25,581 nucleotides of DNA from a virus: IMG/VR virus record IMGVR_UViG_3300033388_002016, positions 1-25,581 of that record. One strand, given 5' to 3'. Below, piece after piece: positions 2-25,581 of the stretch. Below the pieces are notes generated by a model. It had not been told where the DNA came from. It made no database searches and was given only the letters and a program-made list of their open reading frames with translations. The stretch's first letter is position 1. Each line of letters begins with the position of its first letter. The translations under genes and the position numbers were made by a program.

Positions 2-118
2 ATGGACATCACCTGGCAGGGCAAGGAACAGTCGCACCTCGCGGTTGGCTCCATGTCTATGAACGCTTGCCTCATCGACGACCTCGGTGGGTATCGCGTC
101 CTTTCAACGGAGACCTAA
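2..118 (+). CDS. C-terminal fragment of capsid-region gene (partial)
   Basis: The reading frame enters from the left edge and ends at TAA 116-118, leaving about 38 residues that finish in ...GGYRVLSTET. The ATG at position 2 is probably internal, because the window starts there. In T7-type phages the gene directly before a hairpin and the tail tubular A gene is the major capsid protein, so by position this is most likely the capsid C-terminus. The fragment is too short and too weakly conserved to prove it. A 93-aa gene starts just behind its stop, with its GGAG ribosome-binding sequence inside the last codons here. Confidence 0.55.
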   Translation: MDITWQGKEQSHLAVGSMSMNACLIDDLGGYRVLSTET

Positions 119-119
119 A

Positions 120-401
120 TTGAAAACACTACTCAAATTTGCTCTCCGGTTCCTTCCTTGTGCGTTTGATGCGACTCAAATGAATCGTCTTCAGATCGGC
201 ACAATCACTGTCTGGGTCTACAAGTCAGCCGTGGACAATCTCGCGACCATTATCACCAGTGCGTATTTCGATCCACACGCACCGCTGCTTAATAACGGCG
301 ACATTATCTTCATTGCTGATACGAATGTTCCAACGATCGACATGGCAACCGTCACTAGCGTTTCCAAAGCTACGCCGGTTACTGTCCTGAACGGAACTTA
401 G
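120..401 (+). CDS. small virion-associated protein of the capsid region, 93 aa, TTG start
   Basis: The protein is rich in beta-type sequence and follows a pattern I recall from small phage proteins encoded beside the capsid gene: W-x-Y-x-S, then LATI...AYF, then L-x-x-GDII, then V-T-S-V...PVTV. Its function is not known; a head-associated or decoration role is an inference from position. I chose TTG at 120 because GGAG lies 7 bases upstream within the end of the previous gene. The in-frame ATG at 180 has no ribosome-binding sequence, and a longer GTG form from 87 would overlap the upstream gene by 32 bases. The frame is open from about position 60, so a +1 frameshift fusion to the upstream protein cannot be excluded. 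Confidence 0.65.
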   Translation: MKTLLKFALRFLPCAFDATQMNRLQIGTITVWVYKSAVDNLATIITSAYFDPHAPLLNNGDIIFIADTNVPTIDMATVTSVSKATPVTVLNGT

Positions 402-412
402 AACCAGTAAGC

Positions 413-464
413 AAAGGAGTCGGGCCGGGGTTAGCTAGTCTAGCCTCGGCCCTATTTGCATATG
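413..464 (+). promoter_or_regulatory. Shine-Dalgarno separated from its start codon by a hairpin
   Basis: A near-perfect ribosome-binding sequence AAAGGAG (413-419) precedes the gp11-like gene, but 42 bases lie between it and ATG 462, and no other ribosome-binding sequence is visible nearer. The 31-nt hairpin 422-452 fills most of the gap. If folded, the effective spacing to ATG 462 falls to about 11 nt (420-421 plus 453-461), or 5 nt to the alternative TTG 456. This resembles the known phage T4 gene 38 arrangement, where a hairpin brings the two elements together. Confidence 0.55.
422..457 (+). terminator. GC-rich hairpin between capsid region and tail genes (possible intrinsic terminator)
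   Basis: Arm 422-434 (GGGCCGGGGTTAG) pairs with 440-452 (CTAGCCTCGGCCC) over 13 base pairs, two of them G-U, with a 5-nt loop CTAGT. It is followed by TATTT, a weak U tract. The position matches the terminator that follows the capsid gene in T7 (T-phi), which supports a partial terminator that lowers tail-gene expression relative to capsid. The poor U tract makes termination uncertain. Confidence 0.5.
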
Positions 465-3840: not shown

Positions 3841-6454
3841 AGAAACCAGAAAAATCGGAATACGCACAGCGCAGGTCAGGCTACCGACATCGCAAAGCTT
3901 TGGCCCTGCTTTGGTCAAAACTGCTGCGAGCTTTGCTGATCGTGAATTTGCGAAGCTGGCCGACACGCGAACGCAGGAAGCAATCGTTGCTGCCAATGCG
4001 CTTAACTTCGAGCGTGACGGTGACGGCAACCTCATGGCGCCGACTGTGCCGATTGGTGAGAACGGCCTGCTCGCGCCAAGCATCTACGACCGCAAATACA
4101 CTCAGATGGTCGGCCAGCGTTATCTGCAACAGTTGTCGATTGACGTATCTGAGAACATTAACAAGATAGCTGCCGACAACCCGTTTGAACCTGATAAATT
4201 TCGAGCCCTTGCAGAAGGCTACGTTGCAAAGGTCACTGAGCTTGCACCTGATTACCTGAAGGCTGATGTCAACAACACGGCACAGGTGAAGATGGTTGAG
4301 CATTTCAATCACATCATTCGTGTAAGAGCCGAGCGCGATCACTCTGAGGCAAGAGGCTTACAGCTTCAGACTATTGACGGTCTCCAAGACGAAGTATCCG
4401 CCTACATTGCTGGAGGTGCTGATCAGGTTACTGTCGGTGCCGCCCAACTCAAAGTTCGAGCAGCTATCGAGCAGGGCGATGAGTTCAATTACTGGCTTGA
4501 TGATGAAAAGCAACTCATGGTCGATGCAACTGATCGTCTGTTTGCAGTCGCCACCATTAGCAAGCTGATTACCAGTATTCCGCAGAACGATCATGTTGCT
4601 TACTCCGATATGAGGGAAGCGTTACAAAGCTTTGCTCGGGGCGAAGGCGATTTCCCGATGGTGAACGAGCTTGGCGAGGTCGTTCATATCCCATTAGATG
4701 AAATGCCAATTAACCAAGCCGAACGAATTGCTATCGCTGATTTTGCAACTGGCATTCTCAATGACCAAGAGGGTTCATTCACGAACACTTTGGATGTGAG
4801 AGTCCAGCGAGATTGGGAGGACTTTTTCAATTGGTATTCACCACACGCGATGAAGTCGCTGACGACCGGAACGCCTATTGATATGAAAAGACTTGAGCGC
4901 GAGTTCAATAGGGCTCATATCAATGTTGTGACGAAGGGGTATGACGACACTCTCAGGGAAAAGATTCGCCAGCTTATGACGGATCAAGTTTCTCGCGGCT
5001 CTGGTGCACCGACGGCATTCGAGAAAGCATTCATTCCAGGTTGGATTGAATGGCACGCTCAGATGAATGAAGAACAAGAGAGATTGCGTAACGGCGTTCC
5101 GCGATCCGATTTTACGGAAGAACAACTCAACGATCATTGGCAGGCGGCTGTTCAGAAAATCGGCAACATCCCGGGCGGATACAGAGAGCAGAACAAGGGA
5201 GCTGCACAGCAGGTCAATCCGTTCTATACGGCGCTGACCGGCAAGGAGATGACGCGCGAGTATTACGCCGATGTGATTGACAATCCAGACAGCCCTGAGT
5301 GGCAAAGGCTTGAGAGTGTCGTTCCGCAGCGCATGGCGCGTATTGGTATCTGGCCGGACGAGCTGAGAGATACGATCATCGGACGGCTGATGAATCCAGA
5401 GGGTATGAATCAGGACACGCTTGATTCGACGTTGAGGCTTGCCCGCTTGTTTTGGGATCAGCCGACATTCAGGCGCAACATCATGGATGACTCTGCCATT
5501 GGTGGGGATCTCGGTCGTATGCTCAATTCAGTATTCAACAACAGTGGCCGCATACAGGTTGGGGATCTGCAAGAGAAAATGGAGAGATTCAGCGATCCCT
5601 CTTATTCGCCCTACCAAGATTGGATGAAAAGAGATGGAGAGTCGAAAACAGCGTTCATGAATGCCGCCAGGACGATCATCGAAAACTCACTTGAAGCAAA
5701 CTGGCGCTCACTTTGGACGCAACAGGGCCGCATAGCTGCACCGGAATTTGATTGGAATATGTTTGGAGACAACATTCCTTCTTTGCCGCTTGAGATTATG
5801 CGACAGGTAGAGCTCAAGTTGCAGGATCACGCTGGCGACATCAACGAGAAAAACCCGTCAGAGTTCATGCCGTTCATCGCCCAAGTGGTGAAAGAGGTAA
5901 TGAATGAAAACGACTACGGCACTACGAAGATTGGATACGACGCTAATCGATACACCAATTACAACGACACCGTTTGGTGGAAGCCGAAGACGTGGTTTGA
6001 TCTTAAACCAGTATGGGGAATTGCTTCTCGACCTCCTGAGAACTTTGCGGTTCACACAGAGGGAGTTCGCAGGGGCAGCCGAAATACAGAGCTGATGGAG
6101 TTTGTGTGGAAAGATTTTCAATCCGTTTTGGATGCTGCTGCCGAAGCGCGCGGCATGGATGAAACCTTTATCGCCGGAGTGAATGCAGGGCTTGTATATG
6201 ATTCAGCTCTCTCTGCTGCTCAGAGCAACGCTGGCGTATTCACTCGAACCTGGCGGATCGTACTTGTCGCCGACGATGGGCAACGAACAGAAATTCTCAC
6301 TATGGATGGTCTGTTTGATGGCCGGCCACTTCCGTTCAATCTCAATAAAGCAAGAAACGAATATAACAAGGTCATTGCAAAACGACGAGCTGATACATCG
6401 GCGCTTACTCAGATAGAGAGGGCCGCGGCCAAAGGGATTCCGATCTCACCGTAA
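3833..6454 (+). CDS. internal virion/ejection protein (T7 gp15-like)
   Basis: The 873-aa protein (T7 gp15 is 747 aa) starts at GTG 3833, eight bases inside the preceding gene; there is no good ribosome-binding sequence, so coupling to the upstream gene is likely. Sequence features are a basic N-terminus, then long stretches of soluble helical character with many acidic and basic residues and no membrane segment. The last third has W-W-K-P-K-T-W-F-D-L and a D-D-G-Q-R-T-E-I-L-T strand-like region. The gp15 assignment rests mainly on order and size; in T7 gp15 forms the periplasmic tunnel together with gp16. Confidence 0.75.
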   Translation: MARETRKIGIRTAQVRLPTSQSFGPALVKTAASFADREFAKLADTRTQEAIVAANALNFERDGDGNLMAPTVPIGENGLLAPSIYDRKYTQMVGQRYLQQLSIDVSENINKIAADNPFEPDKFRALAEGYVAKVTELAPDYLKADVNNTAQVKMVEHFNHIIRVRAERDHSEARGLQLQTIDGLQDEVSAYIAGGADQVTVGAAQLKVRAAIEQGDEFNYWLDDEKQLMVDATDRLFAVATISKLITSIPQNDHVAYSDMREALQSFARGEGDFPMVNELGEVVHIPLDEMPINQAERIAIADFATGILNDQEGSFTNTLDVRVQRDWEDFFNWYSPHAMKSLTTGTPIDMKRLEREFNRAHINVVTKGYDDTLREKIRQLMTDQVSRGSGAPTAFEKAFIPGWIEWHAQMNEEQERLRNGVPRSDFTEEQLNDHWQAAVQKIGNIPGGYREQNKGAAQQVNPFYTALTGKEMTREYYADVIDNPDSPEWQRLESVVPQRMARIGIWPDELRDTIIGRLMNPEGMNQDTLDSTLRLARLFWDQPTFRRNIMDDSAIGGDLGRMLNSVFNNSGRIQVGDLQEKMERFSDPSYSPYQDWMKRDGESKTAFMNAARTIIENSLEANWRSLWTQQGRIAAPEFDWNMFGDNIPSLPLEIMRQVELKLQDHAGDINEKNPSEFMPFIAQVVKEVMNENDYGTTKIGYDANRYTNYNDTVWWKPKTWFDLKPVWGIASRPPENFAVHTEGVRRGSRNTELMEFVWKDFQSVLDAAAEARGMDETFIAGVNAGLVYDSALSAAQSNAGVFTRTWRIVLVADDGQRTEILTMDGLFDGRPLPFNLNKARNEYNKVIAKRRADTSALTQIERAAAKGIPISP

Positions 6455-11124: not shown

Positions 11125-12059
11125 CACAAATTACGATTCCGAACGAAGCAATCACGGTTACTTATGCCGTAGTTGCACCTTCGACTGGCCCATTTGTTGT
11201 GCCATTCACTTTCCTCAGACAAGAAGATGTCCGCGCGATTGTCACCGATACCAATGGTGATGAAACGACCCTGTTAATCGTCACTGACTTCACTTTTACC
11301 GACCTCGATTTTCCCGTCGGGCAGGAAGGCATTGGCTATACAGGTGGCGAGATAACGCTTCTTTCGTCCATTGGTGCTGACGGCGATACAGAGATCCGAA
11401 TCTTCAGATCCACCGTCATCGACCGCTCTGCGAACTTCCCGAGAACTGGCCCGATCGATATGGCGATCATGAATGATGAGCTGAACGATCACATCGCTAT
11501 CATGCAGGAGCTCTCTGCCGGGATAACGGCAATTCTGGTTCTGCCAAACGGTGTTGTTGAAGGTCAGCTACTTCGGTGGAACGAAGCATTTGACATTTGG
11601 ACGGCAGATGCTCCGATCTCAATCCTCGGCGTCGATGATGTTGTCTTTGAAACCTTGTCCGGCAAGCTGTACCTCAAGACACCTGAGACTGGAAACATTC
11701 AGCGCCAGGTTGGTTACAACGCGATGGCCCCGCAGCTCGAGGACGGAGCGTACACCTTCGACGACATAGGCAACGGTGGCATGATTCTCAATGAGGATGC
11801 CGACGCTGAAACATGGACAGTTGATATTGATTCGGCCGTCGACGACGGTGCACTTTACGGCCTGTCCAATGAGGGCGCCGGCGACGTTACCCTGCTGGTG
11901 GGTGCTGGCGTTACGATGGTCCACATAGCATCGGACGGAACTCGAACTACCAAGTTAGCGACATTTTCTTGGACACTACAGACAGGATTCTTGGGTTCAC
12001 TTTGGAAGCGCAGCACCACAGAATTTTGGTGGTGGGGTACAACTAACATAACGGCATGA
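11121..12059 (+). CDS. tail fibre anchor protein with T7 gp17-type N-terminal domain
   Basis: The first 140 residues follow the phage T7 tail fibre N-terminal pattern: a beta-rich start with F-V-V-P-F-T-F-L, then V, G-Y-T-G-G-E-I-T-L, R-I-F-R-S-T-V-I-D-R and N-D-H-I-A-I-M-Q-E-L, the last being the helix that ends this domain. The remaining 170 residues are glycine- and aspartate-rich beta sequence (D-G-A-Y-T-F-D-D, E-G-A-G-D-V-T-L-L-V-G-A-G-V-T) without a recognisable enzyme. At 312 aa it is shorter than T7 gp17 (553 aa), so it probably anchors the separate receptor-binding proteins encoded next. ATGA overlaps join it to both neighbours. Confidence 0.85.
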   Translation: MTQITIPNEAITVTYAVVAPSTGPFVVPFTFLRQEDVRAIVTDTNGDETTLLIVTDFTFTDLDFPVGQEGIGYTGGEITLLSSIGADGDTEIRIFRSTVIDRSANFPRTGPIDMAIMNDELNDHIAIMQELSAGITAILVLPNGVVEGQLLRWNEAFDIWTADAPISILGVDDVVFETLSGKLYLKTPETGNIQRQVGYNAMAPQLEDGAYTFDDIGNGGMILNEDADAETWTVDIDSAVDDGALYGLSNEGAGDVTLLVGAGVTMVHIASDGTRTTKLATFSWTLQTGFLGSLWKRSTTEFWWWGTTNITA

Positions 12060-18570: not shown

Positions 18571-18830
18571 AATCATGGATGTGGGGAGTAGGCGGTGCAG
18601 TGTTAGCGTCGGTTGCCATGCTATTTATTACAAATTTCCTTGCTGCTAATAAAGCGGGGGCCGATGCACTTGACGATGATAAAATCAAAGCCATCATCAA
18701 AGCGGAACTGGCTCTCGCATTAGTAGTTGACATCAATGGCGAGACATTCACCTACGGCCAAGCGTTATCGAGGATCGATCACAACCTGACCGTAGTGCAA
18801 CAGTCGCTTGCCAACCTCTCCGAAGATTAG
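18567..18830 (+). CDS. small single-span membrane protein
   Basis: The 87-aa protein has one membrane helix at about residues 7-26 (G-V-G-G-A-V-L-A-S-V-A-M-L-F-I-T) preceded by a short N-terminus, and then an acidic/mixed soluble domain (D-D-D-K-I-K-A-I-I-K, L-S-R-I-D-H-N-L). It is the last gene of the rightward block, coupled to the secreted protein by ATGA. A holin-related or envelope role is possible but not shown. Its stop TAG overlaps the stop of the converging gene. Confidence 0.6.
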   Translation: MKSWMWGVGGAVLASVAMLFITNFLAANKAGADALDDDKIKAIIKAELALALVVDINGETFTYGQALSRIDHNLTVVQQSLANLSED

Positions 18831-20134
18831 AACTTCAACCACTTCGGCCGCCACCCATTAGCTTTGACCTTCGTGATTAGCAGCTTCCGAATTGCTGTCG
18901 CTGTCGCATCCTTGAGATGAACTAGCTTCAGTTCCTTTGCGATCGCGATCAGCGTGGTCTTGTTCTTGATCCCCTTCCAGAACGTCTCGGTTGGCTGCCA
19001 GTTCTGAACATCCTTTAAGCCAATGGCCTTGGCTACCGAGTCACTGAACTCGTTGTTGTACGTCTGCCACCTCCATGCGGTGATGATAGCCAGTCGACTG
19101 AGCAGATCCTTTTCGCTCATCTTGTACAGCAGCTTGGGATTCGTATCCTTACTGATCTTGTTGAACGCTTCCTCCATTGCGGAGTAGTCCAGGCTGCCAT
19201 AGATATCTTCTTCGTAGGCTGGTCCCTTGACTGCGCCCATGTTGATCTGATCCATGCGCCAGCTATCGTGGCTGCTCAACATGCAACAGATGTTGACGAC
19301 GAGCGCCGCCTTGTTGTCGTCAAGCAGCTCGCCGCGCACGCCGTTGTGTCGGTGCTGTCTGATGTACGCGCTGAACGCTTGGGATATTTCGGGCTGCGCC
19401 TCCGGCTTGCCCGCGGATCCCTTCGCCTTCGGTGCCTTGCCGCTGTCGTTGAGCCTCTTGTAGCCGGCATGAAACTCGACCCTTCCGGATCTCTTCGGGC
19501 CGTCGTAATGCTCGAGGTCGAAGATTGCATGCTTCTCCATGAACATACCCTTTGGCCCGACCAGCCAATCTTGGATCTCCCAATCCCTCGGTCGTGTCTT
19601 GGCTGTCAGCTTGCCGTACCTGATGACATCCTTCGGCGGCGCGATCGCGAGTGCCTGGAGTGTGCGATCACCAATCTCCTCGGCGTCCGCCAAATCGAGA
19701 ATTTTCTTGGGCAGCGATCCTATCGCGAGCAACTGCTGCACCTCTCTCTCGGTCTTTGAAAAGCGTTCGCCAATTTTTTCTACAGGCATACCGGCTTTGA
19801 ACAGTTTGTTGAATGCAGCGTAGTACTGCATCGCAGTCATACCCCGTCTGTCCACATTCTCGGACAAGGAGATTTCTGTCCGTTCGCTTGGTGTTAAGGC
19901 AGTGACATCGACGCAATCGATCTCCTCGATCCCTGCCTTTGCTGCACCAAGCGTCCGGAGAAACCCCGCCACCACTTCGTACCTTCCGTCACCGTTCTTG
20001 GCCACCGATGGTGGATTGATAATCCCCCGGTGGGTGATGCTGTCCGCCATCATTTGAATGTCTTCCTTGCTGTGCTTGCTACGCACGTTCGACACTGATG
20101 GTTTCAGCTCGTCAACCTTCACTCTTATTTGCAT
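18827..20134 (-). CDS. ParB-like DNA-binding protein (orphan, no ParA seen)
   Basis: The 435-aa protein has the ParB/RepB/Spo0J N-terminal domain: I-I-N-P-P-S-V (38-44), V-V-A-G-F-L-R-T-L-G-A-A-K-A-G (54-68) in the place of the canonical G-E-R-R-x-R-A box, and E-N-V-D-R (92-96) matching the C-motif E-N-x-x-R. A helix-turn-helix (about 116-146, V-E-K-I-G-E-R-F-S...E-V-Q-Q-L-L-A-I-G-S-L-P) follows. The C-terminal region ends G-W-R-P-K-W-L-K-F, recalling mobile-element ParB types. No ParA ATPase or parS-like palindrome is seen here. It lies at the end of a recombination operon. Start ATG 20134 overlaps a tiny upstream frame. Confidence 0.8.
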   Translation of the reverse strand: MQIRVKVDELKPSVSNVRSKHSKEDIQMMADSITHRGIINPPSVAKNGDGRYEVVAGFLRTLGAAKAGIEEIDCVDVTALTPSERTEISLSENVDRRGMTAMQYYAAFNKLFKAGMPVEKIGERFSKTEREVQQLLAIGSLPKKILDLADAEEIGDRTLQALAIAPPKDVIRYGKLTAKTRPRDWEIQDWLVGPKGMFMEKHAIFDLEHYDGPKRSGRVEFHAGYKRLNDSGKAPKAKGSAGKPEAQPEISQAFSAYIRQHRHNGVRGELLDDNKAALVVNICCMLSSHDSWRMDQINMGAVKGPAYEEDIYGSLDYSAMEEAFNKISKDTNPKLLYKMSEKDLLSRLAIITAWRWQTYNNEFSDSVAKAIGLKDVQNWQPTETFWKGIKNKTTLIAIAKELKLVHLKDATATAIRKLLITKVKANGWRPKWLKF

Positions 20135-20210
20135 CTTCTTTTAACCTCTCTATGTTACCGCAGTCGCCGCACTTGTAGTCGTACTCAATCTTAGAAGGGA
20201 ATGTCGTCAT
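20112..20210 (-). CDS. possible 32-aa zinc-ribbon-like peptide bridging SSB and ParB genes
   Basis: This tiny frame starts inside the codons for the SSB acidic tip and ends inside the ParB start region. It contains Y-D-Y-K-C-G-D-C-G-N, like the first knuckle of FmdB-type zinc ribbons. A strong GGGGAG lies 9 bases before its ATG on the minus strand. Only one Cys pair is present, so it would need to dimerise to bind zinc. Short length and double overlap keep the confidence moderate. Confidence 0.42.
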   Translation of the reverse strand: MTTFPSKIEYDYKCGDCGNIERLKEDANKSEG

Positions 20211-20664
20211 CGAAATCGTCTCCCCTTGCTCCGCGCGCGATCGTGCCGGCCTGTTGGGGGCCGCCACTCCCGCTGCCCCGACTCCTCTCGCTACCGGGAG
20301 TCTCGTTTGTATCCCAACCCTTTCCTTTTTCGATGACAAATAATTCTCCCTTGACCTGTGGAACGACTACTTCCGTGATGTACCTCTTTTCTCCGTCCTT
20401 GTCGTAGGTGCGTGTCTTCAGCTCACCCTCGATGTACACGCGCGTACCCTTCTGCAGCCAGTTCTCGCAGATGGTGACCAGGTACGGGTTAAACACGACG
20501 ATGTTATGCCAACTGGTGTCCTCTTTTCTCTGACCAGAAACCTTGTCTTTCCATCTCCGTGACGTTGCGACCGAGAACTTGCACAGGTTTGTGCCGCTCC
20601 CCATCATGTGATACGTCGGCTCTTGTCCGATGTGTCCCATTAAAATGACCTTATTCAGATCCAT
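20191..20664 (-). CDS. ssb: single-stranded DNA-binding protein
   Basis: The 157-aa protein has the bacterial SSB pattern: N-K-V-I-L-M-G-H-I-G near the start, F-S-V-A-T-S-R-R-W, S-W-H-N-I-V-V-F-N, K-G-T-R-V-Y-I-E-G-E-L-K-T-R-T-Y (the OB fold), then a glycine/serine-rich linker and the acidic tip D-D-D-I-P-F that recruits partner proteins. It coats ssDNA during replication and recombination and lies near the Rad52-like annealing gene. AAGGAG is 8 bases before ATG 20664. The start lies inside the 3' end of the upstream gene, indicating coupled translation. Confidence 0.95.
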   Translation of the reverse strand: MDLNKVILMGHIGQEPTYHMMGSGTNLCKFSVATSRRWKDKVSGQRKEDTSWHNIVVFNPYLVTICENWLQKGTRVYIEGELKTRTYDKDGEKRYITEVVVPQVKGELFVIEKGKGWDTNETPGSERSRGSGSGGPQQAGTIARGARGDDFDDDIPF

Positions 20665-20863
20665 CTTTTAATCTCCTTGCCTCAAGCACTAATGTTCTAA
20701 ATGGATTTGGCCCCGGTTTCTCCTCACAGATCAGTCGATTCAAACTGACCCACTGAGCAGCCCAATAACCAAACATGAAAAATTTATATCGAGCCAGCGA
20801 ATCAAGCGCCTTAGTCAACGCTTGTCGCCGGTACTCGATTGCGTCACTTCTTGTCTGACCCAT
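20651..20863 (-). CDS. small conserved phage protein beside SSB, 70 aa
   Basis: The sequence has R-R-Q-A-L-T-K-A-L-D-S-L, then K-F-F-M-F-G-Y-W-A-A-Q-W-V-S-L-N and P-N-P-F. I recall this F-G-Y-W-A-A-x-W-V-x-L-N plus P-N-P-F pattern from small phage proteins encoded near replication genes; the function is unknown. It overlaps the upstream annealing-protein gene by 20 bases and the SSB gene by 14, so it is translated as part of the module. The middle is hydrophobic but too broken by polar residues for a confident membrane span. Confidence 0.65.
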   Translation of the reverse strand: MGQTRSDAIEYRRQALTKALDSLARYKFFMFGYWAAQWVSLNRLICEEKPGPNPFRTLVLEARRLKDGSE

Positions 20864-21578
20864 CTTTCAGCTCGGTCTTTGTCTTGAGAACCCATGACCG
20901 CATTTCAGTTGCAGTTGTTACAGGCAGACCAGCCATCCAGAGTTTGTAATTTTCCATTACCTTATCTATCGACTCTGCGTTCTTGCAGTCCTTGATCGCT
21001 TTGATGAACTTCGCTCTGTCTTCCGCGTATGCCTGTTCCGATGCGGTTGCTGTCTGATCCTTTTCCTTCTTCAGATCGGCAACGTATTTATTGTCGTCGA
21101 ACATTCCGAGGAACACGTCAGCGTTAAAGCCGAGGTGAGAGAGCAGCTTGGTCAGGCCGTCAGTCGACGCCTTCTTGTAAGCATCCGTGTCGGGCTGCTT
21201 GAATGATCCGTCCTTGTTGAGTGACTGCAACATGGCGCCACCTCGTACCGGCCCGAACTCTCGACGGTGACCTGGCGTTGCCATGCCTTCCCATTGGCCG
21301 AACTCAGACCACCAGAATGTAACGTCACACCATGCCAAGATGCGTCCGTCCGTCATGTGGATCTCACCGTACTCGTTTGCGTATCCCCATCCTTCGCCGA
21401 TGGGTCCAAACAATCTCGTCGCTTCCATAATCTGAGAATGCGCGTCGATCGCTGTGAACTTTCGGCCGAACGATACTTCCTTCGTGTGATCCACGTCGGT
21501 CCTGCTGACCTGATCCCACACCCGCATCGTTCCCTTTTCTTCGTTCGCCTTCTTGATGTCTTCCTCGCTGTCTGCCAT
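20844..21578 (-). CDS. putative Rad52-like single-strand annealing protein
   Basis: The 244-aa protein has F-G-P-I-G-E-G-W-G-Y (57-66), A-W-C-D-V-T-F-W-W (82-90) and D-A-Y-K-K-A-S-T-D-G-L-T-K-L-L-S-H-L-G-F (132-151) followed by D-D-N-K-Y-V. The A-x-T-D-G/A-L-x-x-L/A-L-x-x-x-G-F block is the signature of Rad52-type annealing proteins. Encoded with SSB and a YqaJ-type exonuclease it would anneal strands for phage recombination. The C-terminal 80 residues are a charged helical tail, possibly for SSB contact. AGGAAAGG precedes the ATG. Assignment rests on motif likeness. Confidence 0.68.
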   Translation of the reverse strand: MADSEEDIKKANEEKGTMRVWDQVSRTDVDHTKEVSFGRKFTAIDAHSQIMEATRLFGPIGEGWGYANEYGEIHMTDGRILAWCDVTFWWSEFGQWEGMATPGHRREFGPVRGGAMLQSLNKDGSFKQPDTDAYKKASTDGLTKLLSHLGFNADVFLGMFDDNKYVADLKKEKDQTATASEQAYAEDRAKFIKAIKDCKNAESIDKVMENYKLWMAGLPVTTATEMRSWVLKTKTELKDGSDKK

Positions 21579-21587
21579 TACCTTTCC

Positions 21588-21914
21588 TCATGCGTTGTTG
21601 AGCTGAAAAAATTTCGGATGATCGAGCTTGTGCTTGGCCATCCATAACCGAGCCAATCCCGGTGTCATGTTGTTGCTGAGTTTGAACAGTGCCTTGCCCT
21701 GCTTCTCTCGCAGGTCACTGTTCCATCGCATCACCTCGATGATGGTGCGGGCTGAGTATCGCTGTCGCTTGGCTGCCATTGTCAGGCCGTGCCTTTCGAA
21801 CTGCTCCCAAATGTGGTCATTAAATTGGAGCCAATGAAAGAACCCTTCGGGATACTTCTCTTTCTCCAGCGTCCTCAAAAAATCAATGTGCAAAATTTCC
21901 TGTAGCCGTTTCAT
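21588..21914 (-). CDS. widespread phage protein of unknown function, 108 aa
   Basis: Features are N-D-H-I-W-E-Q-F-E, R-Q-R-Y-S-A-R-T-I-I-E-V-M-R-W and F-K-L-S-N-N-M-T-P-G-L-A-R-L-W-M. I recall this Y/F-S-A-R-x-I-I-E-x-x-R-W plus N-N-x-x-P-x-x-A-R pattern from a family common in phage early regions, where the partner and role are unknown. The sequence is basic and mostly helical, suitable for nucleic-acid binding. Its start overlaps a 53-aa gene as ATGA and its stop lies 9 bases before the annealing-protein start. Confidence 0.68.
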   Translation of the reverse strand: MKRLQEILHIDFLRTLEKEKYPEGFFHWLQFNDHIWEQFERHGLTMAAKRQRYSARTIIEVMRWNSDLREKQGKALFKLSNNMTPGLARLWMAKHKLDHPKFFQLNNA

Positions 21915-22072
21915 TTACTTTCCCTCTCTCGTCTCATGCGACCCGCTTCCCACGCTTCCTCGGCTGCCGCCCTGCCGATTCGGTTCTCAGTGAATAGACG
22001 CATCCATTTCTTGCGATCGTCCTCGTACCCGGCTCGTCTCATGTGCGCCAATTTTTGTTTTCGATTACTCAT
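21911..22072 (-). CDS. 53-aa charged protein, coupled at both ends
   Basis: The frame ATG 22072 to TGA 21911 encodes a very basic/acidic helical protein: M-S-N-R-K-Q-K-L-A-H-M-R-R, then W-M-R-L-F-T-E-N, R-A-A-A-E-E-A-W-E-A-G-R-M-R-R-E-R-E. Its start overlaps the upstream stop and its stop overlaps the downstream start, both as ATGA, and it fills what would otherwise be a 150-bp gap in a gap-free operon. The W-E-A-G-R pattern recalls small phage proteins. Function unknown. Confidence 0.72.
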   Translation of the reverse strand: MSNRKQKLAHMRRAGYEDDRKKWMRLFTENRIGRAAAEEAWEAGRMRRERESK

Positions 22073-22320
22073 TCGCCTACCCTCAGATGAATACGGTCAC
22101 GGAGATCCCGGCCACACCCGGCGCAGGAATCATCACCCTTCTCTTTTCCGATTGAACTGTGCGTATGCCGGCATACCTTGTCGCGTTCGTAGCACCATTG
22201 GCACTGGTGACAGCTCCCGTTGTGTTCGTCGACCGTCCCCTCGTTATCGCAATCGGTGTCCGGACACTTGGCTATCCAAAGCAGATCGCGTGTTAGCTTG
22301 ATGATTGCCTTCGTACTCAT
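22069..22320 (-). CDS. cysteine-rich zinc-binding small protein
   Basis: The 83-aa protein has cysteines at 19, 24, 37, 40, 43, 50, 66 and 69 plus two histidines (52, 54), arranged as C-x4-C, C-x2-C-x2-C and C-x2-C. This suggests one or two zinc sites. Similar cysteine-rich small proteins occur in phage early operons, without known role. I chose ATG 22320 (MSTKAI...) because GGGGAG lies 9 bases upstream and the start overlaps the nuclease stop as ATGA; an upstream in-frame ATG would overlap the nuclease gene by 58 bases. Confidence 0.65.
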   Translation of the reverse strand: MSTKAIIKLTRDLLWIAKCPDTDCDNEGTVDEHNGSCHQCQWCYERDKVCRHTHSSIGKEKGDDSCAGCGRDLRDRIHLRVGE

Positions 22321-22907
22321 ATCCACTTTCTCCCCTTCTTTTGCGGTGGCCTGGTCCCTGTCTCGAGCATCCATTGGAATAATTTTTCTTTTTCAAACAG
22401 GGCGTCATCGTATGGCGGGTCGTATGGAACCTTGACCCACTCGTATCGTGTGTTGAGGTAGATCACCGACAGGTAGGCGTGCGGAGATTTGGTGATTCGC
22501 ATGGCGTGCTGGAGCTGCGGCATATACTTGGCCAGCAGATTCTCAGGTCGCCACATCATGTTTATGCACTTGGCCTCGAGCGGGATGAACGCCTCGCCAG
22601 TGCAGATGGTTAGATCATCGTCCTCCTCGGGCTCAAGCAGACCATCAGGCAGGTAGGTGCACCACGGATACTCGGCCAAGCGTAGTGGAGATGTAGGCCA
22701 ATCAGGATCGAGGAAGACCTCACGGCCCGTATCAGCCTCGAACAGCTCAAGATTGAATGGTTCCAGACGCTTCCCGATCTCGGCGGCTAGGCCGTACTCA
22801 GGCGGTGTGAGGTGGGCTTCGGTCTTTCGGTCGTAGAGTTCGGCCCATTGGCCGGCTTGGAGATGAACGGCATCGGATGCGCCGATCGTTTTACTTCTGT
22901 CATACAT
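22317..22907 (-). CDS. YqaJ/lambda-exonuclease-like recombination nuclease
   Basis: The 196-aa protein has the family blocks in order: I-G-A-S-D-A-V (8-14), G-K-R-L-E-P-F (45-51), T-G-R-E-V (60-64), P-D-G-L-L (87-91), E-A-K-C-I (111-115) and Q-L-Q-H-A-M-R-I-T (131-139). D88, E111 and K113 are the expected D...E-x-K metal-binding catalytic residues. Such exonucleases make 3' overhangs for an annealing protein, here probably the Rad52-like gene downstream. Start ATG 22907 has GAGAGG 9 bases upstream; a longer form to 22985 would cross the divergent gene start. ATGA links it to the cysteine-rich gene. Confidence 0.85.
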   Translation of the reverse strand: MYDRSKTIGASDAVHLQAGQWAELYDRKTEAHLTPPEYGLAAEIGKRLEPFNLELFEADTGREVFLDPDWPTSPLRLAEYPWCTYLPDGLLEPEEDDDLTICTGEAFIPLEAKCINMMWRPENLLAKYMPQLQHAMRITKSPHAYLSVIYLNTRYEWVKVPYDPPYDDALFEKEKLFQWMLETGTRPPQKKGRKWI

Positions 22908-22968
22908 TCGCTTAGTCCTCTCTTGACTATGAATGGTATCAGAACAGAGCCCGTGGTACTGTTGCGAA
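22908..22968. promoter_or_regulatory. divergent intergenic region between nuclease and HTH gene
   Basis: This 61-bp gap separates the leftward nuclease operon from a rightward island. It contains TTGACT at 22923-22928 but no good -10 at standard spacing. A small inverted repeat AACAG (22943-22947) / CTGTT (22959-22963) with an 11-nt spacer could be an operator. No strong promoter is recognised. Confidence 0.35.
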
Positions 22969-23151
22969 ATGTCCACAGACGTCATGAATACAGATGAGCT
23001 TGCGGCCTACCTTGAGGTAGCCAAGCAAACCCTTTTTCGGTGGCGGCAGAGTGGCTACGGTCCTGCCTGGATGCGGGTTGGCCCGCGGATTATTCGGTAC
23101 AAGGTCAGTGATGTGATGGAGTGGGAGGCGAGGCTTCGTGAGCAATCTTAG
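22969..23151 (+). CDS. AlpA/Xis-like helix-turn-helix DNA-binding protein
   Basis: The 60-aa protein follows the MerR-type HTH_17/AlpA pattern: M-N-T-D-E-L-A-A-Y-L-E-V-A-K-Q-T-L-F-R-W-R, then G-Y-G-P-A-W-M-R-V-G and I-R-Y-K-V-S-D-V-M-E-W. Such proteins act as small regulators or excisionases. Possible starts are ATG 22969, ATG 22984 and ATG 22933; none has a clear ribosome-binding sequence. It is transcribed against the surrounding leftward genes and could control the divergent nuclease operon or its own island. It overlaps the next gene by 14 bases. Confidence 0.8.
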   Translation: MSTDVMNTDELAAYLEVAKQTLFRWRQSGYGPAWMRVGPRIIRYKVSDVMEWEARLREQS

Positions 23152-23446
23152 GTTCGCAAGGCAGACGGGTACACCCGACGCTAATCAGGCCAGCATCATC
23201 GATGCTTTGGTGAAGATCGGATGCACCGTCTACGACATTGATAAGCCAGTTGATTTGTTAGTGGAGTTTCGAGGGCTTTGGCTGGTCTTAGAAGTGAAGA
23301 CGAAGAAGGGCAAGCTCGAGGACAGTCAGAAAAGATTCTTTGAAAAAGTGAAAGCGCCCGCATTCATAGTGCGGGACATTGAGGAAGCAGTAGCAGCGGT
23401 ACAAACAGCATGGAGACGCACATTAAAGTCTGTGGTCGAATCGTAG
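23138..23446 (+). CDS. small restriction-fold (VRR-NUC-like) nuclease
   Basis: The 102-aa protein has D-A-N-Q-A-S-I-I-D-A-L (14-24), D-K-P-V-D-L-L-V (35-42) and a following E-V-K motif (W-L-V-L-E-V-K-T-K-K-G-K-L) with Q later. This is the D...E-x-K core of PD-(D/E)XK nucleases and resembles small phage proteins often grouped with VRR-NUC. It may cut branched DNA. Start GTG 23138 lies inside the HTH gene with GAGG upstream. Stop TAG 23444-23446. A further short frame starts in its last codons. Confidence 0.72.
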   Translation: MSNLRFARQTGTPDANQASIIDALVKIGCTVYDIDKPVDLLVEFRGLWLVLEVKTKKGKLEDSQKRFFEKVKAPAFIVRDIEEAVAAVQTAWRRTLKSVVES

Positions 23447-23583
23447 AAGTCATCGGCTTCACTGCCGACGGTCGTGTGTGGGTGCGTGATGCCTGCTCTC
23501 AGTTCAAGATCCTGTTGAGCCAGCCCTTTGGTTCAGGCTCCAGCTCCACCGACTCGCCCTCGAGCGCGAGCTCGTCCGGGTAG
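23410..23583 (+). CDS. possible 57-aa protein overlapping the converging DUF932 gene
   Basis: From ATG 23410 the frame reads M-E-T-H-I-K-V-C-G-R-I-V-E-V-I-G-F-T-A-D and continues with V-W-V-R-D, a beta-type pattern resembling real small phage proteins, and ends in a serine-rich tail that coincides with antisense of the DUF932 C-terminus. It overlaps the nuclease gene by 37 bases and the minus-strand gene by 85. No clear ribosome-binding sequence is present, so coupling to the nuclease gene would be needed. Confidence 0.42.
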   Translation: METHIKVCGRIVEVIGFTADGRVWVRDACSQFKILLSQPFGSGSSSTDSPSSASSSG

Positions 23584-24317
23584 TCGACATCACAGAAGTC
23601 GTCAAGCAGCAGGTGCAGGTTAATAGTTTTCTTGGGCAATTCAATGAGCTGGTTTGTAGAAGCTGGCCCAAGTGCAGCCGTCACTGCATTGAAATAGCGC
23701 CACACACTTTTGTCGCCGTGGTCTGCCGACGGGTTGTGCCATTCCTCATTTACTACACGGATGCGTTTCAGATTGATGATGCCCTGGCGGTACGTCTCCA
23801 TGATGAGATGGTCAGCCGTGTAATCGTCAAGGGGTGCTTCCCGATACTCACGGAACCGTACATCTTGTCGCTTTCGCATCACTCGAACCTTCTTGATTGC
23901 CCCCTCGAAAATCTCAGGAAGCTCATTCCAAATGTTCGGCGTGTGCTTTCGCCCTACGACGATGTCCCCCGAAAAGGACAGGTTATCGCAGATGAATACC
24001 TTTGCACCAAGAGCGAGTGAAGCAATGAAAGTCTTGTCGTGTGAATTGCGAAGGGCTGCCATAGTTGCGTGAGCTGCGTCGGGATCTTCATCTTCGTGTT
24101 GGATCTGCATGAGTGCGAAGTAGTGAGCTGCTTCACGGTTCAGGAAGTGTTGAGGATTGGTGATCGAATAGCCTTGATCGAGTAGGCGGGACTCTGCCAT
24201 TTCATAGAATTGATGATGAGGTATCGGTAAGTGAGTCTGAGTTTTTTCTGGAATTGGCAAGCCCATTAGGGCGGGGTACGGAACTGCTTCGGCTCCACAG
24301 TGCATCATTAAGTTCAT
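23499..24317 (-). CDS. DUF932 family phage/plasmid protein
   Basis: The 272-aa protein has the DUF932 core: N-S-H-D-K-T-F...L-A-L-G-A-K-V-F-I-C-D-N-L-S-F-S-G at about residues 92-118 and an R-Y-F-N-A-V-T-A-A region later. The family is common in phages and plasmids and is thought to act on DNA, but no biochemical role is established. Start ATG 24317 is preferred: GAGGACT lies 7 bases upstream and its ATGA overlap joins the upstream gene; the longer frame to 24350 would overlap more. Its 3' end is overlapped by a possible + strand frame. Confidence 0.82.
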   Translation of the reverse strand: MNLMMHCGAEAVPYPALMGLPIPEKTQTHLPIPHHQFYEMAESRLLDQGYSITNPQHFLNREAAHYFALMQIQHEDEDPDAAHATMAALRNSHDKTFIASLALGAKVFICDNLSFSGDIVVGRKHTPNIWNELPEIFEGAIKKVRVMRKRQDVRFREYREAPLDDYTADHLIMETYRQGIINLKRIRVVNEEWHNPSADHGDKSVWRYFNAVTAALGPASTNQLIELPKKTINLHLLLDDFCDVDYPDELALEGESVELEPEPKGWLNRILN

Positions 24318-24511
24318 GCTGAGTCCTCTTTTGCGTTGAGTTGATCGCATTCATGTTGAGCCCAACTCTTGAATGCGAATGTGCGTATCCTGTGCTGGCT
24401 GTCGTCCCTCCGTAACAACTCACCAGTTTTCAAATCCATTATTCCATGATTGGAACTCTCCAATTCGTGAGGAGTGAACCGCTCGATATTCGGCTTGATA
24501 TTAAATCCCAT
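24314..24511 (-). CDS. small hypothetical phage protein, 65 aa
   Basis: The sequence has G-I-M-D-L-K-T-G-E-L-L-R-R and F-A-F-K-S-W-A-Q-H-E-C-D-Q-L-N, a pattern of short phage proteins with two strands and a helix (Y/I-x-D-x-x-T-G...A-x-x-x-x-D-x-L-N); no function is known. AAAGGAGG precedes ATG 24511, the best ribosome-binding sequence on this strand, so this may be a highly translated gene. It overlaps the DUF932 gene by 4 bases. Confidence 0.62.
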   Translation of the reverse strand: MGFNIKPNIERFTPHELESSNHGIMDLKTGELLRRDDSQHRIRTFAFKSWAQHECDQLNAKEDSA

Positions 24512-24520
24512 GATCCTCCT

Positions 24521-24877
24521 TTAGTTTGGCCCAACCATGATCCCTGGTGGTGCCGGTATCGTTTCATCCATTGGCCGCCACAGATGCAGACAATTCGGAT
24601 GACAGTTGATGTGATCGCTCGCGCCTACGTGCAGTTGCATTACGACGTGTTCTGGATTCCACCAAAATTTTCTTTTTATCCAGTCCATGTCCTCATAGCT
24701 TGGCGTCCTTTTGCGCCGTGATACTGATACGTGTTCCCAACCCATCCCATTTGCCCAAATAACTTTGAGCCCTTTAGGTTTGATTAAAGCTGCCCCATTC
24801 TCAACACCGCTCGGCGGGTATCCGGGTATCTGGACAAGATACTGCGACAGCTCAGGTGGGCATCCGAAATGTGGCAT
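24521..24877 (-). CDS. DUF7694-like phage protein
   Basis: The 118-aa protein shows N-G-M-G-W-E-H-V-S-V-S, then R-T-P-S-Y-E-D-M-D-W-I-K-R-K-F-W, V-M-Q-L-H-V and C-L-H-L-W-R-P, ending P-A-P-P-G-I-M-V-G. This is a pattern I recall from a conserved small phage family (I believe DUF7694) of unknown role. Its start overlaps the upstream stop as TAATG. The stop is 9 bases before the next start. Conserved histidines and the L-H-L-W-R-P block suggest a compact enzyme-like or metal-binding fold, an inference only. Confidence 0.7.
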   Translation of the reverse strand: MPHFGCPPELSQYLVQIPGYPPSGVENGAALIKPKGLKVIWANGMGWEHVSVSRRKRTPSYEDMDWIKRKFWWNPEHVVMQLHVGASDHINCHPNCLHLWRPMDETIPAPPGIMVGPN

Positions 24878-25185
24878 TACAGATCCCCCGTTAGTGCGTC
24901 GTCTTTGCGCTTGTCTCGCAGGTAGTCAGCGTGGCATTCGATACATTCCTGGCATTGCTCACCGTCATCACTGACGATCATATCCTCGCAAGTTCGACAC
25001 CAGTTTGCATTCTCCATCGCTTCCTCGAGTGAGTCAGTTCGAGCGCATTCAGGGCAATACCACTCCCACTCATCGGGTTCTTCTCTTGTTGCATGGAACA
25101 CGACTTCTTTTCTAATGTCCGCCTCGCTACCTTCCCACTCGCAACGAGTACAGATCCATCGCTCCTTCAATGGTACTTCGCTCAT
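24877..25185 (-). CDS. zinc-ribbon protein with four CxxC motifs
   Basis: The 102-aa protein has C-x2-C pairs at 12/15, 44/47, 63/66 and 78/81, plus C84, consistent with two zinc ribbons, and acidic loops between them. Small proteins of this type are frequent in phage early regions and often bind host factors or nucleic acid, which I cannot show here. GAGG and AAGG lie before ATG 25185. It forms TAATG overlap with the DUF7694-like gene. Confidence 0.68.
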   Translation of the reverse strand: MSEVPLKERWICTRCEWEGSEADIRKEVVFHATREEPDEWEWYCPECARTDSLEEAMENANWCRTCEDMIVSDDGEQCQECIECHADYLRDKRKDDALTGDL

Positions 25186-25190
25186 TAGCC

Positions 25191-25442
25191 TTACCTCGGA
25201 TTTAGTCTTTCCACCGCTTGCTCAAGGTGACGCAGCCGTTTGTTTACGATGTCGATTCGTTCACCAAGCTTGGTGTCCGTAGCGATGAGAGTATGACAAC
25301 CCTTGATCGTGGTCTTGATCTCCTCAACGATCCCGGCCTGCCACTGCAACAGCTCACGGTGCTTATGATCGAATGATTTCTTCCACGCAAGCAGCTCGTC
25401 GACATCAGCGAACAACTGAGCTCGCTGGATCTCGCCGGCCAT
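25191..25442 (-). CDS. small coiled-coil protein, 83 aa
   Basis: Residues 14-80 are almost entirely helical with charged heptads (E-L-L-A-W-K-K-S-F, I-V-E-E-I-K-T-T-I-K, I-V-N-K-R-L-R-H-L-E-Q-A-V), suggesting a coiled coil. Start ATG 25442 has GAGG 8 bases upstream and overlaps the upstream stop as TAATG; an upstream GTG adds three residues. No function recognised. Confidence 0.6.
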   Translation of the reverse strand: MAGEIQRAQLFADVDELLAWKKSFDHKHRELLQWQAGIVEEIKTTIKGCHTLIATDTKLGERIDIVNKRLRHLEQAVERLNPR

Positions 25443-25581
25443 TACCCGCACCTCGTTTCGTAGACATCGACTTCTTGCATCTTGGTGCCGATCTTGATCC
25501 GCTTACATACTGTGCTGCTGAACCTGAGCCAGATCCTCATGTCACTGTCTTTGTGCTCCCAATAACAAGTGAACTGCGACT
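25442..25581 (-). CDS. C-terminal part of an unidentified gene (partial at right edge)
   Basis: An open frame enters from the right edge on the minus strand and ends at TAA 25444-25442, sharing a base with the next start (TAATG). About 45 residues are visible, including C-Y-W-E-H-K-D-S-D-M-R-I-W-L-R-F and K-M-Q-E-V-D-V-Y-E-T. The coupling and the protein-like composition support a real gene. A 32-residue form from an internal ATG is possible but less likely. Not recognised. Confidence 0.55.
   Translation of the reverse strand, partial: SQFTCYWEHKDSDMRIWLRFSSTVCKRIKIGTKMQEVDVYETRCG

Follow-up and report, generated by a model that had tools for sequence, protein, structure and literature searches.

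A fixed, divergently oriented regulator–nuclease unit in the recombination block of a podovirus-type phage family, with a predicted leaderless regulator start

The window, by which we mean the whole 25,581-base virus record analysed here, belongs to an uncultured, short-tailed phage of the podovirus type, as judged from a 733-aa gene similar to the tail tubular protein B genes of Pelagibacter and Methylophilales phages. Its structural genes lie left of position 18827 and run rightward. The called genes from 18827 to 25451 run leftward, with the exception of one short island, and comprise genes for a ParB-like protein, SSB, a PHROG 'exonuclease', small ORFs, a YqaJ/RecE-like exonuclease, a DUF932-like protein and further small ORFs. 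The island consists of three rightward ORFs placed between the YqaJ start (22907) and the DUF932-like stop (23499). The features of the locus are listed below; class A denotes the intergenic type shared by the window and the contigs L001, L003, L005, L014 and L015.

22317..22907, minus strand: YqaJ/RecE-like recombination exonuclease (Pfam YqaJ, 2.8e-6; PHROG 434, 1.5e-26)
22908..22968, no strand assigned: control region separating the divergent YqaJ and HTH genes; 31 of its 62 alignment columns are invariant among the class-A relatives (n=6)
22923..22968, no strand assigned: conserved core, 30 of 46 bp invariant in the six class-A relatives
22934..22942, plus strand: TGGTATCAG, candidate operator half, with the upstream copy of a directly repeated TGGTA (20 bp spacing)
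22954..22962, plus strand: TGGTACTGT, putative extended -10 (TGnTAnnnT), separated from the HTH ATG by 6 nt
22969..23151, plus strand: 60-aa winged HTH regulator (HTH_17; RdfS/BldC-like fold)
23138..23446, plus strand: 102-aa VRR-NUC/Hjc-like nuclease (PHROG 93 and 5702; fold near Hjc 2eo0 and VRR_NUC 4qbo)
23410..23583, plus strand: 57-aa third ORF, which overlaps the 3′ ends of the nuclease gene and, in antisense, of the DUF932-like gene
23499..24317, minus strand: DUF932-like gene, converging on the island

An earlier note, made from the letters of the window, had described a rightward HTH–nuclease pair running against all its neighbours. The ORFs are confirmed, the neighbours being the leftward block 18827-25451, and position 23583, where that note had ended the island, is the end of the third rightward ORF. 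The HTH protein matches HTH_17 (PF12728) above the curated cut-off (37.1 bits, cut-off 27). Its best solved relative in profile searches is RdfS (PDB 8dgl, E=1e-10), which also takes rank 1 in a Foldseek search with the HTH model (pLDDT 82; E=4.7e-3), and BldC is also among the nearest folds. To AlpA (PF05930), named in the note's AlpA/Xis-like HTH label, the window protein gave no Pfam match at E<=1; the HTH of a single relative, L002, gives a sub-threshold AlpA match (14.7 vs 21 bits). The HTH ORF is open over 22933..23151 (plus strand). The ATG at 22969 is invariant across the six class-A relatives. As for the other candidate starts, the frame from 22933 stops before the 22969 ATG in L003 and L014, and 22984 does not correspond to a start codon in L005. 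On this evidence, translation almost certainly begins at 22969.

The nuclease gene starts with GTG, has GGAGG 9 nt upstream, and overlaps the HTH gene by 14 nt (23138-23151), as previously noted. Its product matches PHROG 93 'endonuclease' (4.2e-9), and the D...E-x-K motif read from the sequence in the earlier note is borne out, since D39, E52 and K54 of a PxD...ExK arrangement are invariant in 12/12 aligned relatives. The nuclease model (pLDDT 82.6, pTM 0.72) finds Hjc 2eo0 and VRR_NUC 4qbo as its top Foldseek matches with probability 1.00 and E ~0.017, every Foldseek match lying above E=0.001; a PDB profile search with the protein found nothing. As the curated cut-off of Pfam VRR_NUC (PF08774) is not reached (17.7 vs 23.8 bits), we place the protein in VRR-NUC by fold and motif only, and otherwise say that it would work like these enzymes. 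It is predicted to be, and probably is, a Holliday-junction resolvase. In one relative, L020, the slot downstream of the HTH gene is filled by a DUF1064 gene (5434-5802, minus strand; 1.3e-23), which we take to be of the PD-(D/E)XK nuclease class, and this suggests that the slot after the HTH gene needs a nuclease.

The third ORF has no family match at E<=0.1, and its N-terminal part is kept in L001, L002, L013 and L015. At this convergent end the third ORF overlaps both the nuclease and the DUF932-like ORF. A terminator scan of the window found no terminator there, and a stem-plus-T scan found none at the convergent ends of 11 loci including the window, so that overlapping convergent transcripts are possible. 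The DUF932-like ORF is open from 24350 and has its likely start at 24317; Pfam DUF932 is matched below threshold (17.1 vs 23 bits), and the protein is 60-89% identical in 11 loci. On the other side of the island, YqaJ starts at ATG 22907 (MYDRSK...) with the ribosome-binding site AGAGGA. An alternative YqaJ start at 22985 was discarded, as L001, L005 and L014 have same-frame stops just upstream of MYDRSK and the 22907 start is kept.

The relatives, all uncultivated contigs, share this arrangement. The HTH gene is present in 14/14 family contigs, of which about 12 are independent (L003 and L004 represent one phage, with 99.94% identity over 7.8 kb, and L021 and L022 gave equal scores), and it is divergent from the adjoining YqaJ gene in all 13 contigs that reach YqaJ. 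The nuclease follows the HTH gene in 13/14, L020 being the exception, and the DUF932-like gene converges on the island in 12 of the 13 contigs reaching that far, the exception being L002. Loci fetched without an HTH or nuclease query gave the same picture, with the HTH gene carried by 11/11 close (at least 60% identity) DUF932 loci and 11/11 YqaJ loci. The HTH–nuclease pair thus appears from these comparisons to be a fixed part of a phage group, rather than a travelling cassette.

The DNA between the divergent YqaJ and HTH starts is more conserved than the third codon positions on either side. Its 31/62 invariant columns compare with 11/81 such positions in the adjoining HTH and YqaJ codons of the same class-A set (Fisher, 2.7e-6) and with 2/19 fourfold sites (0.0027), in a comparison that drew on 28 YqaJ codons. 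The longest invariant run is TGACTATGAATGGTATCA (22924-22941), kept in 6/6 class-A relatives, and TGGTATCA is likewise invariant in 6/6; TGGTATCAG at 22934..22942 may be an operator half. A second invariant block, TACTGTTG (22957-22964), stands at constant spacing directly before the HTH ATG in 6/6, where class A reads TGKTACTGTTG. The resulting pattern, TGKTACTGT-N6-ATG, is found at the HTH start of all six class-A relatives, and TGNTANNNT-N6-ATG occurs at 1 of 913 window ATGs, the HTH ATG itself. Searching viral contigs with the class-A DNA pattern returned seven stretches, six of them at the family locus; the seventh, in L051, was dismissed as a chance match inside an unrelated ORF.

This spacing resembles that of leaderless genes. 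An excerpt of PMC3160421 treats TANNNT about 12 bp before the start as marking bacterial leaderless genes, and TANNNT 6-7 bp before the ORF is reported from Deinococcus, where it was tested experimentally, in an excerpt of PMC12340547. This sign is present at the HTH gene, where TACTGT precedes the ATG by 6 bp in 6/6 class-A relatives and where, in the window, no Shine-Dalgarno (SD) sequence stands before 22933, 22969 or 22984, in agreement with the earlier note. Neighbouring leftward genes carry an SD (AAGGAG for SSB, AAAGGAGG for 24314-24511, AGGA for YqaJ). Several rightward structural genes of the window are also without a clear one, so that a missing SD alone is weak evidence. TANNNT also lies 6 or 7 bp before the start of two window structural genes, at 12056 and 12544, in both cases inside the gene row and without the TG extension. 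From the conserved extended -10 placed exactly 6 nt before the ATG, together with the missing SD, we infer that the class-A HTH mRNA is leaderless with its 5′ end at ATG 22969, which lends partial support to the leaderless translation suggested earlier. A sigma-70 scan of both strands predicted no promoter within the control region, and Rfam gave no match. A literature search on leaderless phage genes, made by topic and not by locus name, did not find the locus described.

The earlier note had also proposed a switch acting on the divergent operon through an AACAG/CTGTT repeat. Of this, a regulator at a divergent promoter is supported in part, whereas the repeat is not the operator, as its AACAG arm is kept in 0/5 other class-A relatives. 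AACAG-N11-CTGTT occurs once in the window, where AACAG (n=37) and CTGTT (n=27) in 25.6 kb would give ~0.7 such close pairs by chance; the CTGTT arm falls in the conserved block before the HTH ATG.

The control region exists in distinct alleles. Class B (L013, L018, L019, L020 and L022) has different intergenic DNA, GGTATGC...GGTGATACC (less clear in L020), with a longer distance to the start, and L023 represents a third type. AGGA precedes the HTH ATG in class-B L013, L018 and L019; L020 has GGAG further upstream, and L022 a weak GTGGAT only. The class-A sequence ATGGTATCA (window 22933-22941) was also seen on the opposite strand in L018 and L019, as GGTGATACCAT, possibly a half-site common to these two and class A.

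The HTH class equals the intergenic class in 12/12 cases, the two sequences being neighbours. HTH identity to the window is 63-82% within class A and 36-42% outside it, whereas the DUF932-like and YqaJ identities overlap between classes A and B. Individual contigs are mosaic: L013 pairs a class-B HTH with the DUF932-like protein that is nearest to that of the window (89%); L014 combines a class-A HTH with a nuclease only 53% identical; and in L002 the nuclease is 87% and the HTH 43% identical to the window. Class A forms a clade in the HTH tree (LG+G4; support 76/97). With nominal p values under this faster model, the same clade is rejected in the DUF932-like (p 0.026) and Exo244 (p 0.013) trees and is not rejected in the nuclease (p 0.065) and YqaJ (p 0.21) trees. 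The class-A clade of the HTH tree and its discord with flanking genes suggest, at the level of sequence, that the HTH gene and its operator/promoter have been exchanged as one unit at a fixed place.

How the island should be understood depends on whether it moves. One reading, proposed in part in the earlier note, is a mobile accessory element (a defence or anti-defence cassette, or a moron) able to enter different sites with its own regulator and nuclease. It would fit the orientation of the island opposite to its surroundings, and also the outgroups that have no island between the DUF932-like and exonuclease genes. Salinibacter phage M8CC-19 (MF580956) resembles the window in its row of DUF932-like, RecE/YqaJ-type exonuclease, SSB and Erf-type annealing genes, but differs in that its DUF932-like and exonuclease genes are adjacent (~44 bp) without an HTH–nuclease island; in L025 they are ~46 bp apart, and in L024 a 60-aa ORF lies between them. 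L002, conversely, carries the island without the DUF932-like gene there (absent between o57 and o65). Yet place and orientation are constant throughout the family, and the pair was not found in other contexts. Among the 80 best of 247 nuclease relatives, 13 belong to the family and 67 are distant (L064-L130); none of the latter (0/67) has an HTH match of E<=0.01 less than 800 bp away, with one marginal neighbour (L074, E=0.04), in a search whose HTH profile may miss divergent HTHs. One scan of a genome collection with the nuclease alignment gave no relative, and in the four annotated phage regions read, the nearest nuclease homologues belong to gene rows of replication or early type. No PADLOC model matches the nuclease, and the only defence-model match of the HTH protein is a weak one to MAD1 HTH (28.8 bits vs cut-off 80). 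The mobile cassette is thus largely refuted, and we regard it as very improbable. Rather, since the outgroup genes are adjacent without the island, it is probably an old insertion into the recombination operon that has since become fixed, loss in the outgroups being the alternative.

If the island is fixed, the HTH protein could still serve a temperate phage as recombination directionality factor (excisionase), the nuclease being an unrelated passenger. Its nearest fold and profile match, RdfS, the presence of mycobacteriophage Pukovnik Xis among its profile and fold matches, and PHROG 66 'excisionase and transcriptional regulator' (2.4e-7) all point this way, whereas TIGR01764 'excise' stays under its cut-off (23.2 vs 28.8 bits). 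Tyrosine integrase (PF00589) was found in 0/8 records (seven family records other than the window, and that of L025) and serine recombinase (PF00239) in 0/6 including the window; the integrase-searched records may be incomplete, two family ones being 37.8 and 39.2 kb long. An excisionase role is less likely for want of an integrase in these searches, and we consider it improbable. A further reading concerns the conserved core, which may serve the leftward promoter instead of that of the HTH gene: it would be the promoter/operator of the YqaJ operon only, under another regulator, and the HTH protein would come from an unseen leadered transcript starting elsewhere. The longest invariant run (22924-22941) does lie nearer the YqaJ start and holds a weak leftward -10-like CATAGT, and a leftward TATAAT is conserved in class-B L013, L018, L019 and L020. 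Against this, TACTGTTG keeps its constant position directly before the HTH ATG in 6/6, and a leadered HTH mRNA would have no SD. We hold this reading to be unlikely, though worth keeping in mind.

The explanation we favour, and think reasonably probable, is that the island forms a regulatory and resolvase unit, fixed and particular to this lineage, within the podovirus recombination module. The winged HTH protein would be made from its own promoter, in class A on a leaderless mRNA beginning at the ATG, and would bind the DNA between both divergent starts, thereby limiting its own operon and setting how much the leftward YqaJ-SSB operon yields. The VRR-NUC protein, coupled in translation to the HTH protein, would act as a dimeric resolvase of Holliday junctions and other branched DNA, processing the products of the YqaJ-SSB recombination machinery. 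Relatives would swap the HTH gene together with its operator/promoter as a single allele, in the manner of phage immunity regions. A bolder version, which we think quite unlikely, sees in the leaderless winged HTH, operator and promoter an exchangeable 'immunity-like' allele, a switch without lysogeny in phages with no detected integrase. The leftward operon and the HTH–resolvase transcript might then silence each other by antisense in an excludon-like manner, given the overlapping ORFs and the lack of a visible terminator at the convergent end, so that exonuclease and annealing functions would come first and junction resolution later. One search for papers on excludons turned up nothing about such an arrangement.

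Parts of the favoured unit have known counterparts. RdfS, the directionality factor of a Mesorhizobium ICE, is a small winged HTH protein of the BldC/Xis type, and binds and represses its own promoter according to an excerpt of PMC11963761. The window family differs in having no detected integrase or att site and in the linkage of its HTH gene to a nuclease and a recombination operon. The standalone VRR-Nuc proteins psNUC, stNUC and saNUC are ~100 aa in length with the same PxD...ExK order as the window nuclease (excerpt of PMC4103454), whose fold matches stNUC (4qbo); unlike them, the window nuclease lies under the Pfam cut-off and its activity is predicted. The phage lambda regulator cI is transcribed in an arrangement of divergent promoters, and its transcription starts at the start codon or right beside it. 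The HTH gene of the window is alike in being a phage regulator at divergent promoters with its start codon at or next to the predicted transcription start, and unlike in its unrelated HTH family, its place beside a recombination operon, the lack of a detected integrase and in that its leaderless start is predicted. An excerpt of PMC9031893 names lambda cI among leaderless mRNAs.

The novelty therefore lies in the arrangement and in the contrast between leaderless and leadered alleles, not in the protein families. The locus offers a natural comparison, in which orthologous regulators at one place have leaderless-looking starts in one class and leadered-looking ones in another, and the intergenic DNA has changed to match. 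It allows tests of how leaderless starts originate, and of whether regulator-operator alleles pass between phages that lack lysogeny in the way they do between temperate ones. If the favoured explanation is true, a VRR-NUC resolvase would be tied to a dedicated control switch.

Some smaller observations concern the genes around the island. The DUF932-like and YqaJ leaders (24318-24335 and 22908-22920, minus strand) have AGAGGACT(C/A)AGC in common immediately ahead of the start codon; it looks as though a single leader was copied at the time the island came to divide the operon. In L002, a stretch open in frame with the HTH gene (55-432, plus strand) resembles an HNH-type endonuclease (PHROG 2340, 7e-12) and is possibly part of an HNH-HTH fusion. 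The ParB-like gene (window 18827-20134, minus strand; also L001, L020 and L021) aligns in two pieces, ~2-214 and 210-435, which a variable stretch separates in relatives. Finally, a homologue of the window ORF 24521-24877 (DUF7694), which in the window lies upstream of the DUF932-like gene, is placed between the ParB and SSB genes in L005 (691-1029), an instance of local gene shuffling.
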